Shown here piece by piece: positions 2,054-10,684 of a DNA stretch of 15,327 nt (position 1 is its first letter; each line of letters starts with the position of its first letter). The notes beneath the pieces are model-generated. The model was given only the letters and a program-made list of their open reading frames with translations. It was not told where the DNA came from and did no database searches. Source of the DNA: Thermoplasmata archaeon. GTDB taxonomy: Archaea > Thermoplasmatota > E2 > UBA202 > JdFR-43. The stretch spans positions 1 through 15,327 of the forward strand of contig JAGGYX010000063.1 in the NCBI GenBank assembly GCA_021162305.1, read 5' to 3'. The position numbers and the translations under genes were made by a program.

Positions 2054-2088
2054 GTTTGCATTTAAATTGTTAGCAAATTGATGATAAA

Positions 2089-2484
2089 ATGAGTAAACCA
2101 ATTGGAGTTAGGATAGATAGCAGGCAAGAAGAAATATGGTTGCAATTCAAGGAATTTGTAGAAGAAAAATATGGGAAAAAGCATACAGTTTTGGGAAATG
2201 AACTCGTCAGGGCATTGCAACTTTATCTTGATTTATATCAAAAAGCATCAAAAAACAATTTTGAAACCCATCTCATAAAAAAGAAGGCTGGAGAAATAGA
2301 AATAAAAAGTTTAAAAGAAATTTCATATGATTTGCTTAACACACTCATTGCAATAGCGGGATATGCAGAAAGTTTGGAAGAAGAAGTTAAAGGAAAAGAG
2401 GCACAGGAAAAAATAAAGGTTATAAAAGATCTTGCAACAAAATCACTTAAAATGTTGCAAGAGAGAATAGAAGGCATGGAATGA
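2089..2484 (+). CDS. RHH-like regulator with a degenerate histidine-kinase DHp domain
   Basis: 131 aa in two parts. Residues 1-50 look like an RHH fold: a short beta strand (PIGVRID, 4-10) then two helices (about 11-28 and 33-50), so DNA binding as a dimer is likely. Residues 75-129 match a HisKA (DHp) helical hairpin: LKEISYDLLNTLIAIAGYAE follows the pattern of F..SHDLRNPLTAI.GYAELL, then a second helix EKIKVIKDLATKSLKMLQE. The phospho-accepting His is replaced by Tyr80 and the conserved Pro by Thr, and there is no ATPase domain. The most economical reading is that the DHp hairpin serves dimerization or docking rather than phosphotransfer. The ATG of the next gene overlaps its stop codon (ATGA, 2481-2484), so translational coupling is likely. 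The RHH and DHp calls are my own pattern matches; no described family is known to me. Confidence 0.65.
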   Translation: MSKPIGVRIDSRQEEIWLQFKEFVEEKYGKKHTVLGNELVRALQLYLDLYQKASKNNFETHLIKKKAGEIEIKSLKEISYDLLNTLIAIAGYAESLEEEVKGKEAQEKIKVIKDLATKSLKMLQERIEGME

Positions 2485-3548
2485 TGAAGCTCGGCTTTTT
2501 GGTGAATCCAATAGCAGGAATGGGAGGAAGAGTTGGACTAAAAGGAACAGATGGAATGCTGCAGGAAGCAATAAAGAGAGGAGCAGAGCCTGTAGCTCCA
2601 GAGAAAGCAATTCAATTTTTAAAGACATTGAAAGAAAGGAAAATTGATTTGCAAATTTTTACAGTATCTGGAGAAATGGGACATAATGAATGCAGAAAGG
2701 CTGGGTTGGAAGCGAGAGTGATATATAAATGCAATGAACCTTCTTCTTACATCGACACTATCAATGCATGCAAAGAATTTTTAAAAATTGGTGTTGATGC
2801 AATAATTTTTGTTGGAGGTGATGGAACAGCTCGAGATATATATTCTGTGGTGAAAGATAGCATAGTCATGCTTGGCATTCCAGCTGGCGTGAAAATGTAT
2901 TCTGGTGTCTTTGCATTTACACCTGAGCAAGCAGCGGAGGTCATTGAAGATTTTGATGGATTTGAGGAAAGGGAAATCATGGATATTGATGAAGAAGCTT
3001 TTCGTAAGGGAATTTTCAGGGTTAAACTGATTGGCTATGCTGTAACATTTTCCCATAAAAAAGTGCAGCATGGAAAGGATATTGTTGAAAATGAAGGAAA
3101 GGAGGAGATTGCTGAATGGATAATTGAGAATATGGAAAAAGACGTTGTTTATATCATCGGCAGCGGCTCAACAACATGGGCAATTAAAAAAGCTCTGGGA
3201 ATAGATGGAAGTTTTTTGGGAATAGATGTCATAAAGAATGGAAAGCTTTTGTGCAGGGATGCTGATGAAAAAAGCATTTTGAAAAATTTGAATGGAAGAG
3301 CTAAAATAATAGTTAGCCCCTTGGGGGGGCATGGTTTCATATTCGGACGGGGAAATCAACAGATTAGCAGCAAGGTCATAAAAAAAGTTGGCAAAGATGG
3401 CATCATAGTTGTGGCAACAAAAGGTAAGCTGAGCAAACTTGACAGCCTGAAAATTGATACCGGAGATGAAAATTTAAATAAAGCTATTAGAGGATATATT
3501 AAAGTTATTACTGGATACAATGAGAGCAAAATTATGAAGGTTATTTAA
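2481..3548 (+). CDS. ATP-NAD kinase-like protein (COG3199/AcoX-like)
   Basis: 355 aa. Related to NAD kinases and the diacylglycerol-kinase fold: N-terminal strand with glycine loop (LGFLVNPIAGMGGRVGLKG, 4-22) and the nucleotide-binding GGDGT at 112-116 followed by ARDIY. The following VMLGIPAGVKMYSGVFAFTP (129-148) and the C-terminal region VSPLGGHGFIFGRGNQQIS are typical of the archaeal long NAD-kinase-like group rather than canonical NadK. Expected activity is ATP- or polyphosphate-dependent phosphorylation of NAD or a related small molecule; the true substrate of this group is not established as far as I know. It starts at ATG 2481 (or 2484), overlapping the regulator gene, so both are one operon. 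It overlaps the convergent aminotransferase by 8 bases. Confidence 0.85.
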   Translation: MMKLGFLVNPIAGMGGRVGLKGTDGMLQEAIKRGAEPVAPEKAIQFLKTLKERKIDLQIFTVSGEMGHNECRKAGLEARVIYKCNEPSSYIDTINACKEFLKIGVDAIIFVGGDGTARDIYSVVKDSIVMLGIPAGVKMYSGVFAFTPEQAAEVIEDFDGFEEREIMDIDEEAFRKGIFRVKLIGYAVTFSHKKVQHGKDIVENEGKEEIAEWIIENMEKDVVYIIGSGSTTWAIKKALGIDGSFLGIDVIKNGKLLCRDADEKSILKNLNGRAKIIVSPLGGHGFIFGRGNQQISSKVIKKVGKDGIIVVATKGKLSKLDSLKIDTGDENLNKAIRGYIKVITGYNESKIMKVI

Positions 3549-8063: not shown

Positions 8064-9332
8064 TCAAGGCGTGGTTATTGAAACATCTTTCACCATTGCA
8101 TATGGAGAAAATACTGGTGTTTCCACTTCCCACCAGAAAATTTGTTTTTGCTGTTTTGAAAGCATTTCTATGTTTTCGAGAATTCTCTGCATATTATCGC
8201 TTATCCTTATTCCTTTAACGGCATGCATGCCTTTTTTATCAACTCTAAATATTGCATCCCTTGCAACTGTTGAAAAATCCCCATTTCTATAATTTTGAAA
8301 TCTTGTATACCATACATTTGTTATTATAATTCCTTCAAATCCTTCCATCATTTGCTCTATACCAAAGCTTCCTTTCTCAACAAAAACATTCCATGGATGA
8401 GGAGCCACTATTCCAGCATTTCCTGTGGTAATGGTATTATACTTCGAGGCTGTTGTGCTATTATGGAGATAGCTTTTCAATATACCATTCTCAATTATGC
8501 ATGTTGCTTGAGTTGCATTTCCCTCATCATCAAATTTTTGTGAAGCAATTCCATCATATAGTGTGCCGTCATCATATATTGTTAAAGCATCACTTCCTAC
8601 CTTTTTATTCAATTTATCTGCAAGAAAAGAATAGCCTGCATCAACATAAAAGGCAGAAGCAAAGGAAGCAACGCTCGCCATTAAATTTGCAAATGCCATT
8701 GGATAAAAAATTACATCATATTTTCCTTCTTTTATTCTCCTTGCTTTTCCTGCTTTCTTTGCAGTTTCATATGCATTTTCAGCAATACTTGAATCTATTC
8801 CTTCTACGCTCCTTGAACAACTCACATCATGCATGGAAGAATTTCTGTAAAAAGCTCTTGCGGATAAATAAATCATGCTATTTCTATCTTTTTCCATGAC
8901 TCCGTTTGAATTTGCTATCTCTTTTTCATATATTGATGAAAAAACAATCCCAGCTTTTGCATTTTGTGAAATTGCATCCTCAGCTATTTCCACCATAGCA
9001 TTACTGTCTATAACCCTGCTATCAAATTTTTTTCTATTAACATAATTTCTTTTATCCTGTATTCCATGATATTCGGAAGGAGAAACTATATTGAGTATTT
9101 TCATGTTTCTTTCAATAGCTTCTCTTATCTTTGCCTTTGTTGGATTGTCAACATTGAAAAAAATTTTTTTGTTTTTTCTTGCCATGAAAATTTTTAGAAT
9201 GGTTTCATCCCATTCTTTTATTATCTCAACCTTTCCATTGTAAAACTTTACCTGCTTTTCTATGCTTTTTTCATTGCTCACAATTCCATCCATTCCATTT
9301 TTCATAATCAAATTCAGAGCATATTCAATCAT
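8064..9332 (-). CDS. tldE: TldE/PmbA, non-catalytic partner of the TldD protease
   Basis: 422 aa PmbA/TldE family protein. In studied bacteria TldE forms a heterodimer with TldD and helps it cleave unfolded or modified peptides, for example maturing microcin B17 and degrading CcdA. The sequence has the family's N-terminal domain (ISQNAKAGIVFSS, 128-140), no HExxxH, and the C-terminal GFEGIIITN and NYRNGDFSTVARDAIFRV blocks (the latter corresponding to the NxxxGxFS pattern of TldE). The start ATG overlaps the tldD stop as ATGA, with a perfect GGTGAT Shine-Dalgarno three bases before it, so translation is coupled. The stop TGA directly abuts tRNA-Leu. Confidence 0.9.
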   Translation of the reverse strand: MIEYALNLIMKNGMDGIVSNEKSIEKQVKFYNGKVEIIKEWDETILKIFMARKNKKIFFNVDNPTKAKIREAIERNMKILNIVSPSEYHGIQDKRNYVNRKKFDSRVIDSNAMVEIAEDAISQNAKAGIVFSSIYEKEIANSNGVMEKDRNSMIYLSARAFYRNSSMHDVSCSRSVEGIDSSIAENAYETAKKAGKARRIKEGKYDVIFYPMAFANLMASVASFASAFYVDAGYSFLADKLNKKVGSDALTIYDDGTLYDGIASQKFDDEGNATQATCIIENGILKSYLHNSTTASKYNTITTGNAGIVAPHPWNVFVEKGSFGIEQMMEGFEGIIITNVWYTRFQNYRNGDFSTVARDAIFRVDKKGMHAVKGIRISDNMQRILENIEMLSKQQKQIFWWEVETPVFSPYAMVKDVSITTP

Positions 9333-10684
9333 TTTATCACCATGTTATCTATCCTAATATCAACTCCACCTGTTGTAACAGGCACACCCTGCATAGGGTC
9401 ACCTTTTCCACATGTAGCAGCGTAGAATTCAAGGTTTTTTCCAACGGCAGCAACATTTCTGTAAAAGAAAGGCGTTGTAAACTCAATGGCTGGATGATAT
9501 GCTATGCCTGCTATCTCACCATCCTTTATTATATATGCCTCCTCTCCAACATATTTCTGATTGTATCTCATATCATCTATGTTCCACTCCATATATGTTT
9601 TAATATAAACGCCATTCTTCACCCCTTCAATCATCTCTTCAAAGCTATAATCGCCAGGCAAAAAATATGTATTTGCCATCCTCACTATTGGCTCTCGCCC
9701 ATAGGCGGCGCGGGCGGCGGCGTTGCTTTCGCTGCCCATCAAATGTGCTGTATGACGATTGTGCAAAAACTCATTTATGATGCCATTTTTGATTAGATAC
9801 CTTTTCCTTGCTTTTATCCCTTCATCATCATATTTATAGTATCCGTAGCTTCCTTTTATTGCAGGCTCATCAATCACGCTTATCATTTCATTTCCAAATT
9901 TTTTTCCCAGCATGCTTGGCTTAACAAAAGATTTTCCTGCCTGTGCAGCTTCTCTTCCCCAAATGCGGTCAGCTTCCCAAGGATGGCCGCAACTTTCATG
10001 AGCTATCAAGCCAGTTATATATGGCGAGAGAATAACGCTTCCTTTTCTTGATGCTTTTCTACCTTTTTTTATTAAATCGGAAAGAAATTTTGCATCATGT
10101 TCCAGCTTCTCCTCAACATTCCATTCCTTTATCTTTTCCCATCCTCCAGCATTTCCAAATTCTCTGCTCATTTGCTCAATTCTTCCATTTGATTTCGTTA
10201 CAAGATAATATAATGCCACCCTAGGAATTTTTGAATATATTTTTGCCCCTTCGCTATTCATATAAAATTTTTCCATTATCTCATCCTGATAGAAAAAGCT
10301 CTTTTGATTTTTTGATATGGAATCAAGCTCCCTTATATATTCTATCTTTTCATCAATGTCGGCATCTTTTCCTTTGACAATATCTTTTCCCTCTTCCATT
10401 TTTTCATTTCCAAATCTAACAAAATGCTTTTTTCTTGCCCTGTTTTTCATTGCTTTTTCAACTGCCTCTCTTATCTTTTTTCTGTTAACAATGTTTGAAA
10501 ATGAAAAGCCAAGGAGCCCATCTTTTATTATCCTTATGGAAAACCCACAATGATGAAAGCTTTCAACGCCTTTTAACTCGCCAACATAACTTATTTCATT
10601 TCCTTTTATTTCTTCTAACCTCACTTCAGTATAATCTGCCTTCGATATTTTCAATGCATATTCTGCCAAATCTTCATCAATCAT
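9329..10684 (-). CDS. tldD: TldD metalloprotease
   Basis: 451 aa catalytic subunit of the TldD/TldE zinc protease. The metal site is visible: H229, E230 and H234 in AHESCGHPWEADRIWG, with C425 of ATCGKGDPMQGVPVTTGG corresponding to the cysteine ligand near the C-terminus. DEGIKARKRYLIKNGIINEF and the NAAARAAYGREPIVRM block (about 287-336) are also characteristic. It threads unfolded peptides into the TldD/TldE cavity and cleaves them. The ATG at 10682-10684 gives the usual N-terminus (MIDEDLAEYALKI). The gene lies 31 bases after the secreted PKD protein gene on the same strand and overlaps tldE by 4 bases, suggesting a three-gene transcript. No small peptide gene that could be a substrate precursor is visible nearby. 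Confidence 0.94.
   Translation of the reverse strand: MIDEDLAEYALKISKADYTEVRLEEIKGNEISYVGELKGVESFHHCGFSIRIIKDGLLGFSFSNIVNRKKIREAVEKAMKNRARKKHFVRFGNEKMEEGKDIVKGKDADIDEKIEYIRELDSISKNQKSFFYQDEIMEKFYMNSEGAKIYSKIPRVALYYLVTKSNGRIEQMSREFGNAGGWEKIKEWNVEEKLEHDAKFLSDLIKKGRKASRKGSVILSPYITGLIAHESCGHPWEADRIWGREAAQAGKSFVKPSMLGKKFGNEMISVIDEPAIKGSYGYYKYDDEGIKARKRYLIKNGIINEFLHNRHTAHLMGSESNAAARAAYGREPIVRMANTYFLPGDYSFEEMIEGVKNGVYIKTYMEWNIDDMRYNQKYVGEEAYIIKDGEIAGIAYHPAIEFTTPFFYRNVAAVGKNLEFYAATCGKGDPMQGVPVTTGGVDIRIDNMVIK
9336..9341 (-). promoter_or_regulatory. Shine-Dalgarno GGTGAT for tldE
   Basis: GGTGAT on the - strand, three bases before the tldE ATG and inside the last codons of tldD. It matches the anti-SD end of archaeal 16S rRNA and fixes the tldE start within the ATGA overlap. 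Confidence 0.7.

Follow-up and report, generated by a model that had tools for sequence, protein, structure and literature searches.

A 131-aa archaeal regulator and the NAD-kinase-like gene that overlaps its stop codon form a real and conserved pair, and the regulator carries a histidine kinase-type (HisKA/DHp) hairpin with a tyrosine in place of the phospho-accepting histidine. The protein appears to join an RHH-like DNA-binding half to a HisKA/DHp hairpin that would have been stripped of both its ATPase partner and its phospho-His. It probably controls its own two-gene operon together with surface-pilus genes, and perhaps reads a separate signalling protein. The explanation we favor, to which we would give an even chance, is that the protein regulates its own expression and a set of surface genes, with a hairpin that reads a free receiver and the kinase-like enzyme as a co-transcribed neighbour. 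Features are collected in Table 1 for the window, by which we mean the whole 15,327-nucleotide stretch of DNA analysed, taken from a 1.44-Mb archaeal genome assembled as 223 contigs.

Table 1. Features of the regulator locus in window coordinates, with the evidence for each
Feature	Position	Strand	Evidence
TATA-box-like stretch TTTTATATAAA	2043-2053	+	By eye
Candidate operator TTGTTAGCAAA, 11 bases before ATG	2067-2077	+	Core TGTTAGCAAA in 16/16 promoters
131-aa regulator gene	2089-2484	+	ORF call, homologues, ortholog alignment
RHH-like DNA-binding half, residues 1-54 (MSKPIGVRID...), helices 11-28 and 34-54	2089-2250	+	Alignment, model, weak RHH_1 profile match
Predicted beta-hairpin linker, residues 60-74	2266-2310	+	Model: strands 61-66 and 69-74, low confidence
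HisKA/DHp-like two-helix hairpin without ATPase, residues 75-131	2311-2481	+	Pfam, profile-profile, model
Tyr80 codon at phospho-His position	2326-2328	+	Tyr in 16/16 orthologues, 89/96 family rows, 82/88 full-length
D81-x-x-N84, equivalent of HisKA E/DxxT/N motif	2329-2340	+	Acid 94/96, Asn 94/96
NAD-kinase-like enzyme, 355 aa, PF01513 and PF20143, GGDGT motif	2481-3548	+	Pfam; adjoins regulator in 17/17 orthologues

The gene pair and its distribution

The NAD-kinase-like reading frame begins within the regulator's stop codon, in an ATGA overlap. Matches to the regulator were found in 18 of the 99 genomes searched, its own included; one of them (G077) covers the first 49 residues alone and has a different C-terminal half. 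Orthologues thus number 17, all within a single Thermoplasmata order (17 of the 22 genomes G000-G021), and named relatives of the protein are Thermoplasmata MAGs. At each of these 17 loci the NAD-kinase-like gene lies directly downstream, overlapping or a few bases apart, with the G017 gene reading as two pieces. Our ortholog alignment comprises 16 of the 18 matching genomes, leaving out G016, where the regulator is truncated by a contig end, and G077, where the match is N-terminal only. The original prediction had described a 131-aa protein with a HisKA-like segment, Tyr80, no ATPase domain and a stop overlapping an NAD-kinase-like gene, all of which is confirmed here, and the pairing with COG3199-type genes that it anticipated recurs in 17 of 17 orthologues. 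One relative, P0065 (52% identity across 99% of the query), is labelled Nitrospiraceae bacterium and probably represents an archaeal contig that was wrongly binned. Elsewhere in the window, two neighbouring genes on the minus strand (8064-10684) resemble by eye a TldD/TldE protease pair.

The neighbour, which we take to be a COG3199/AcoX-type NAD-kinase-like protein, matches PF01513 (E 3.2e-21, 76.4 bits) and PF20143 (E 3.3e-17, 62.8 bits), both over their cut-offs, and its translation contains the GGDGT motif shared by proteins of that type, along with both domains. None of the equivalog NCBIfam models reached its cut-off for this protein, and no related solved structure was found by sequence at E 0.1. 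The idea that it is the genome's sole NAD kinase was ruled out, as a stronger PF20143 match lies on contig C198. The kinase-like gene occurs in 85 of the 99 genomes and is older and wider than the regulator; in some members of the order another copy sits behind a TrpB2-like gene and lacks the regulator. Based on these two observations the enzyme is independent of the regulator. In five genomes (G001, G002, G004, G015 and G019; loci L247, L080, L081, L083 and L082) this second COG3199-type copy overlaps the TrpB2-like gene. Some TrpB2 enzymes act on O-phosphoserine, and a phosphorylated amino acid might therefore be the product of the TrpB2-linked kinase-like enzyme.

Putative DNA-binding half and HisKA-type hairpin

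The N-terminal half of the regulator (MSKPIGVRID...KYGKKHTVLGNEL) is its best-conserved part. Pfam gave no RHH match in the regulator, and an RHH_1 search of 59 genomes matched two other places of the window's genome and not the regulator gene. Profile-profile comparison with 30 RHH_1 domains gave a weak, co-linear match (13%, score 17.9 versus at most 16.2 in 100 shuffles), and comparison with a poorer set of five RHH domains gave 1.2%, equalled by 4 of 100 shuffles. Residues 1-60 have pLDDT values of 55-71 in an AlphaFold2 monomer, with the strand unassigned. The strand-helix-helix pattern fits an RHH domain, and on this modelled fold the RHH assignment of the N-terminal half is plausible. 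The RHH-like start proposed in the original prediction fits the modelled helices and has weak profile support, but no profile library recognises it as RHH. The same N-terminal half (KHGKxHTxLGEEL) is fused to other C-terminal halves in P0095 and at L025:1225-1641, so that this half looks like a mobile DNA-binding module.

The regulator ORF contains ISYDLLNTLIAIAGYAESL, with tyrosine at residue 80. Taken singly, sequences of the family stay under the curated cut-off of Pfam HisKA (PF00512; 26.9 bits): residues 76-121 of the regulator match at E 0.013 and 16 bits, while the distant relatives P0086 and P0088 reach 5.7e-5 and 1.3e-4 (best 23.5 bits). HisKA was matched by 5 of 16 orthologues at E up to 10 (best 0.0025), and chance families turn up about as often, RPW8 for instance in 7 of 16. 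No HATPase_c match was found by Pfam in the 131 residues. As profiles, residues 66-131 match a set of ATPase-less DHp domains with 96.2% probability and a set of ordinary HisKA domains with 94.4%, with Tyr80 facing the histidine in both. The scores are 47.1 and 40.4, respectively, whereas 100 column shuffles for each set reached no more than 23.2 and 16.0, and the reversed alignment gave no match; rotated alignments still score high, as expected with most of the residue order intact. A chance match was ruled out, column shuffles and reversal being far lower. These comparisons set 92 family rows against 19 DHp domains without ATPase and 23 ordinary HisKA domains, all drawn from the same genomes. 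Left out were four of the 96 family rows, one of the 20 ATPase-less frames, which is truncated ahead of the histidine, and seven of the 30 HisKA loci, which the motif filter missed; the 20 ATPase-less regions had been picked from listed HisKA matches, mainly for short frames.

The AlphaFold2 monomer, built from 16 sequences (mean pLDDT 73.9), places helices at residues 75-99 and 103-130, with a block of pLDDT 83-91 across residues 81-130 preceded by a weak beta-hairpin. The top Foldseek row was the GacS kinase at E 0.17, with no match at E ≤0.001; its DHp domain superposes on the hairpin with an rmsd of 1.0 over 55 columns (prob 0.98), and unrelated helix hairpins superpose equally well (VIA-align). 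In all, the recycled HisKA-type hairpin first suggested from the DNA alone is supported by profile-profile scores against shuffles, by the predicted two-helix hairpin and by the GacS DHp fit; the proposed check against HisKA profiles gave 94-96% in profile-profile mode, with single sequences under the Pfam cut-off.

The residue pattern was read from a family alignment of the window's protein and 95 homologues (96 rows), of which 88 rows of at least 129 aa count as full-length. The stretch S79-Y80-D81-x-L83-N84 is invariant in all 16 aligned orthologues, which answers for Tyr80 the question of conservation raised at the outset. Position 80 is Tyr in 89 rows, Phe in 2, His in 2, Gly in 1, Arg in 1 and a gap in 1, and among full-length rows Tyr in 82, with Phe, His, Gly and Arg in 2, 2, 1 and 1. 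At position 81 (H+1) there are 91 Asp and 3 Glu in the 96 rows and an acid in 87 of 88 full-length rows, and position 84 (H+4) is Asn in 94 of 96 rows and in every full-length one (88/88). The His-bearing relatives P0088 and P0090 read SHEIINPL, the textbook HisKA pattern, and relatives with His, Phe or Gly at this site would show the histidine being lost with the docking/phosphatase Asn staying. The best-kept residues of the hairpin (E77, S79, Y80, D81 and N84) gather around the former catalytic site.

In the kinase CrdS, passages of PMC3510030 state that the H+4 residue N375 is required exclusively for phosphatase activity and the H+1 acid for kinase activity, and that loss of the histidine merely lowers phosphatase activity. 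In Caulobacter DivL, as described in parts of PMC4211667, Tyr550 replaces the phospho-His, DivK~P is read, Y550H leaves binding unchanged, and kinase or phosphatase activity is neither present nor needed. Given these reports and the pattern at positions 80 and 84, the receiver-facing residues appear to be kept while the phospho-acceptor is free to change; going by its residues, the family thus looks like a receiver-docking/phosphatase-type surface minus the phospho-acceptor. Since the conserved face of the hairpin is the one that meets the receiver domain in kinases, a receiver is a likely input. The H+1 acid is kept without any ATPase, which a docking model leaves unexplained.

In the window's genome HATPase_c is matched six times, with at least four of these matches judged by eye to lie in histidine kinases. 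Receiver matches also number six; four are free-standing proteins of 131-147 aa, encoded on contigs C132, C120, C21 and C204, in which PF00072 alone was found. Free-standing receivers need a partner in order to act. Neither a receiver nor a kinase gene was found close to the regulator in eight loci or in the window, so a receiver partner is hypothetical. ATPase-less sensor proteins are numerous in the order and end in [AS]H[YH]FFNPxxIAKGY...IERIEKVVKNIV hairpins (L147-L166; 19 of 20 regions fetched). Copies in the window's genome are on contigs C203, C132, C204 and C165, and those on C132 and C204 are directly upstream of free-standing receiver genes. Adjacency of a receiver to an ATPase-less DHp gene was rejected as a general rule, being seen in only 2 of the 20 fetched regions, both from the window's genome.

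The hairpin could instead be a structural relic, an oligomerisation core that only joins RHH dimers so that they bind tandem units cooperatively, with neither receiver nor small-molecule input; the protein would then be a constitutive autoregulator, its abundance determining the response. That reading draws on the missing receiver neighbour, on the 89 rows with Tyr in place of His, on the fact that helix hairpins of such shape are common, and on the 11-bp tandem operators described below, which call for adjacent dimers. However, conservation of E77, S79, Y80, D81 and N84 clusters at the former catalytic site and not along the whole core, and the Asn is fixed while position 80 drifts among Tyr, Phe, His, Gly and Arg. 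We consider a pure relic unlikely.

Promoter element and putative regulon

Upstream regions of the regulator in 16 genomes are dissimilar, flanks included, apart from a block before the start codon: TGTTAGCAAA is found there in all 16 orthologous promoters and TTGTTAGCAAA in 14. Exact TTGTTAGCAAA occurs once in the 1.44-Mb genome, at 2067-2077 of the window. Archaeal transcription starts about 25 bases downstream of the TATA box, and by this spacing the expected start would fall inside the candidate operator. A second unit (at least 6 of 8 bases) lies exactly 11 bp upstream in 7 of the 16 own promoters, against at most 4 in shuffled flanks at any offset; the window's promoter has a single strong unit, with units 11 bp away matching 3 and 4 of 8 bases. 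A Shine-Dalgarno site was rejected by eye as an explanation of the block, and a +17 peak in 8 of the 16 own promoters is the gene's own start, ATGAGCAA, and not an operator unit.

Elsewhere, the candidate operator block leads to pilin-like genes carrying GTTAGCAAAAAGTTAGCAAA, and TTAGCAAA repeats as tandem pairs spaced 11 bp. When up to one mismatch was allowed, a search for the tandem pattern TTAGCAAANNNTTAGCAAA found 32 sites, spread over 20 of the 22 order genomes, compared with one hit for the reversed pattern used as control; in the 77 genomes outside the order there were 5 sites, versus 21 hits for the reversed pattern. Because the pattern was derived from four promoters that are themselves among the 32, this number is not wholly independent of it; the other target classes played no part in making the pattern. 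All but one of the sites (31/32) precede genes, the remaining one being inside an ORF. Pilin-like PKD genes of about 490 aa account for 13 sites (in G001, G002, G005-G010 and G012-G016), the start of a small zinc-ribbon gene, transcribed away from a neighbouring dCMP-deaminase-like gene, for 11, the regulator's own operon for 4 and other secreted-type genes for 2. One site precedes a T2SSE-type pilus ATPase gene in the window's genome, and two-mismatch sites precede the same gene in G002 and G004. By Pfam, one pilin-like protein has Pilin_N (2e-16) and PKD, and the ATPase has T2SSE (1.5e-37); Pilin_N was tested on two proteins, the remaining pilin-like genes being named by eye from their shared N terminus and the zinc-ribbon genes from a CPxCG pattern.

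At the zinc-ribbon start a candidate unit pair (12-16 of 16 bases) was present in 17 of 17 order genomes in which the neighbouring gene was found, with 12 of 16 bases in the window's genome and 10 of 16 in two outside genomes. The tiny zinc-ribbon gene begins within a TTAGCAAA array on G000:C84 (L238) and in 16 further order genomes. Secreted-type proteins starting VSNMK or VSKMR have TTAGCAAAATGTGAGCAA 10 bases upstream (L200, L276, L277 and L278, in G004, G012, G005 and G008), and their genes are perhaps another target class. A lone TTGTTAGCAAA stands 60 bases before a glutamate-dehydrogenase-like gene in one genome only (L116, G006).

That the TTAGCAAA element belongs to another regulator, with the 131-aa protein a mere target or the partner of a sensor protein, we regard as improbable. 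Such an arrangement would fit the weak support for an RHH fold and the tandem sites of G001, G002, G004 and G006, in which no regulator was found. None of those four assemblies, however, has an intact regulator locus: in G001, G002 and G004 a contig end truncates the 5′ side of the orthologous kinase-like gene, which was identified from the aminotransferase gene convergent with it, and in G006 the kinase-like gene is absent, and absence of the regulator may reflect assembly incompleteness. The sites are moreover confined to the same order and missing in the regulator-less G018 (71% complete), in which a different gene precedes the kinase-like gene and neither regulator nor tandem site was found, and the element is the sole conserved stretch of the regulator's own promoter.

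Proposed mechanism and relation to known systems

In the mechanism we favor, two or more regulator dimers would sit side by side on TTAGCAAA units close to or at the start site, with an 11-bp spacing that corresponds to one turn of the helix. Bound regulator would repress its own operon, including the NAD-kinase-like gene, as well as the archaeal-pilin-like PKD genes, the pilus-type ATPase gene (in the window's genus) and the small zinc-ribbon gene. The hairpin would be the dimer or tetramer core that ties RHH-like dimers together, and also the input surface, docking a free-standing phosphorylated receiver much as the Tyr-DHp of DivL reads DivK~P. Docking would alter DNA binding, and the conserved Asn may in addition remove the receiver's phosphate. 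Binding to the operator, repression and receiver input are what we infer from the patterns above.

The original prediction had instead seen a one-component switch coupling DNA binding to a nucleotide kinase or its product; a one-component mode is possible for the regulator, but the coupling was not supported, as the kinase gene is wider than the regulator, has a second copy without it, and the operator stands before pilin-like, zinc-ribbon and pilus-ATPase genes. Feedback of this kind, with the regulator sensing a nucleotide or NAD(P) product or the enzyme binding the hairpin, is most improbable, for although the overlapping frames in 17 of 17 orthologues and the shared operon under a conserved promoter element speak for it, the gene is found in 85 of 99 genomes and does not require the regulator, its paralogues in the order follow TrpB2-like genes and have no regulator of this type, contig C198 carries a canonical NAD kinase match and the candidate operator also precedes surface genes.

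RHH repressors of the Arc, CopG and MetJ type have a short N-terminal strand-helix-helix, autoregulation and tandem sites about one turn apart. The regulator resembles them in its N-terminal pattern, proposed autoregulation and tandem candidate sites; unlike them, it has no Pfam RHH recognition, a longer helix A and a HisKA-type hairpin. Arc-type RHH-HisKA-REC proteins have been reported in Lokiarchaeum sp. GC14_75 (Galperin et al. 2018, PMC5847659), and by the description in that paper they are likewise archaeal, with an RHH DNA-binding half and a HisKA hairpin without ATPase, but they have a C-terminal receiver, whereas the regulator ends at its hairpin. No relative with a receiver-length extension was found: a length-extended search gave one hit, P0086 (145 aa), among 152 candidates. 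One related protein, P0084, is labelled Lokiarchaeota. The suggestion that the module was undescribed is partly wrong, the RHH-HisKA-REC of Lokiarchaeum being in print (PMC5847659); of the Tyr form, the receiver-less form and the TTAGCAAA regulon we found no report in the open-licence literature searched.

PMC5847659 also records archaeal 'HisKA, no HATPase' proteins. These and the H[YH]FFNP sensors share the ATPase-less HisKA hairpin, which is the best profile match to that of the regulator, but they have an N-terminal PAS or other sensor, keep the histidine and have no DNA-binding half. DivL, as characterised in parts of PMC4211667, is alike in having Tyr for the phospho-His with the DHp surface kept, and some of its orthologues have another residue there. 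Its DHp surface reads a phosphorylated receiver, which for the regulator is only proposed; DivL is also a large bacterial PAS-DHp-CA membrane protein that keeps an ATPase-type domain and acts on a kinase, not on DNA. It is a tentative proposition that the regulator amounts to a DNA-bound DivL, a Tyr-DHp hairpin fused to a DNA-binding domain that reads the phosphorylation of free receivers, and so would supply the output for a two-component network with receivers devoid of output domains, and controls a surface/pilin regulon through 11-bp tandem TTAGCAAA arrays.

For archaea known from metagenomes only, the analysis predicts both an operator and the genes under its control (pilin-like, zinc-ribbon, pilus ATPase and NAD-kinase-like), which makes the idea testable with one purified protein and short DNA. 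If true, the dimerisation hairpin of a histidine kinase would have been converted from a phosphate donor into a DNA-bound reader, and archaeal receivers, many of which lack an output domain, would be wired directly to promoters.
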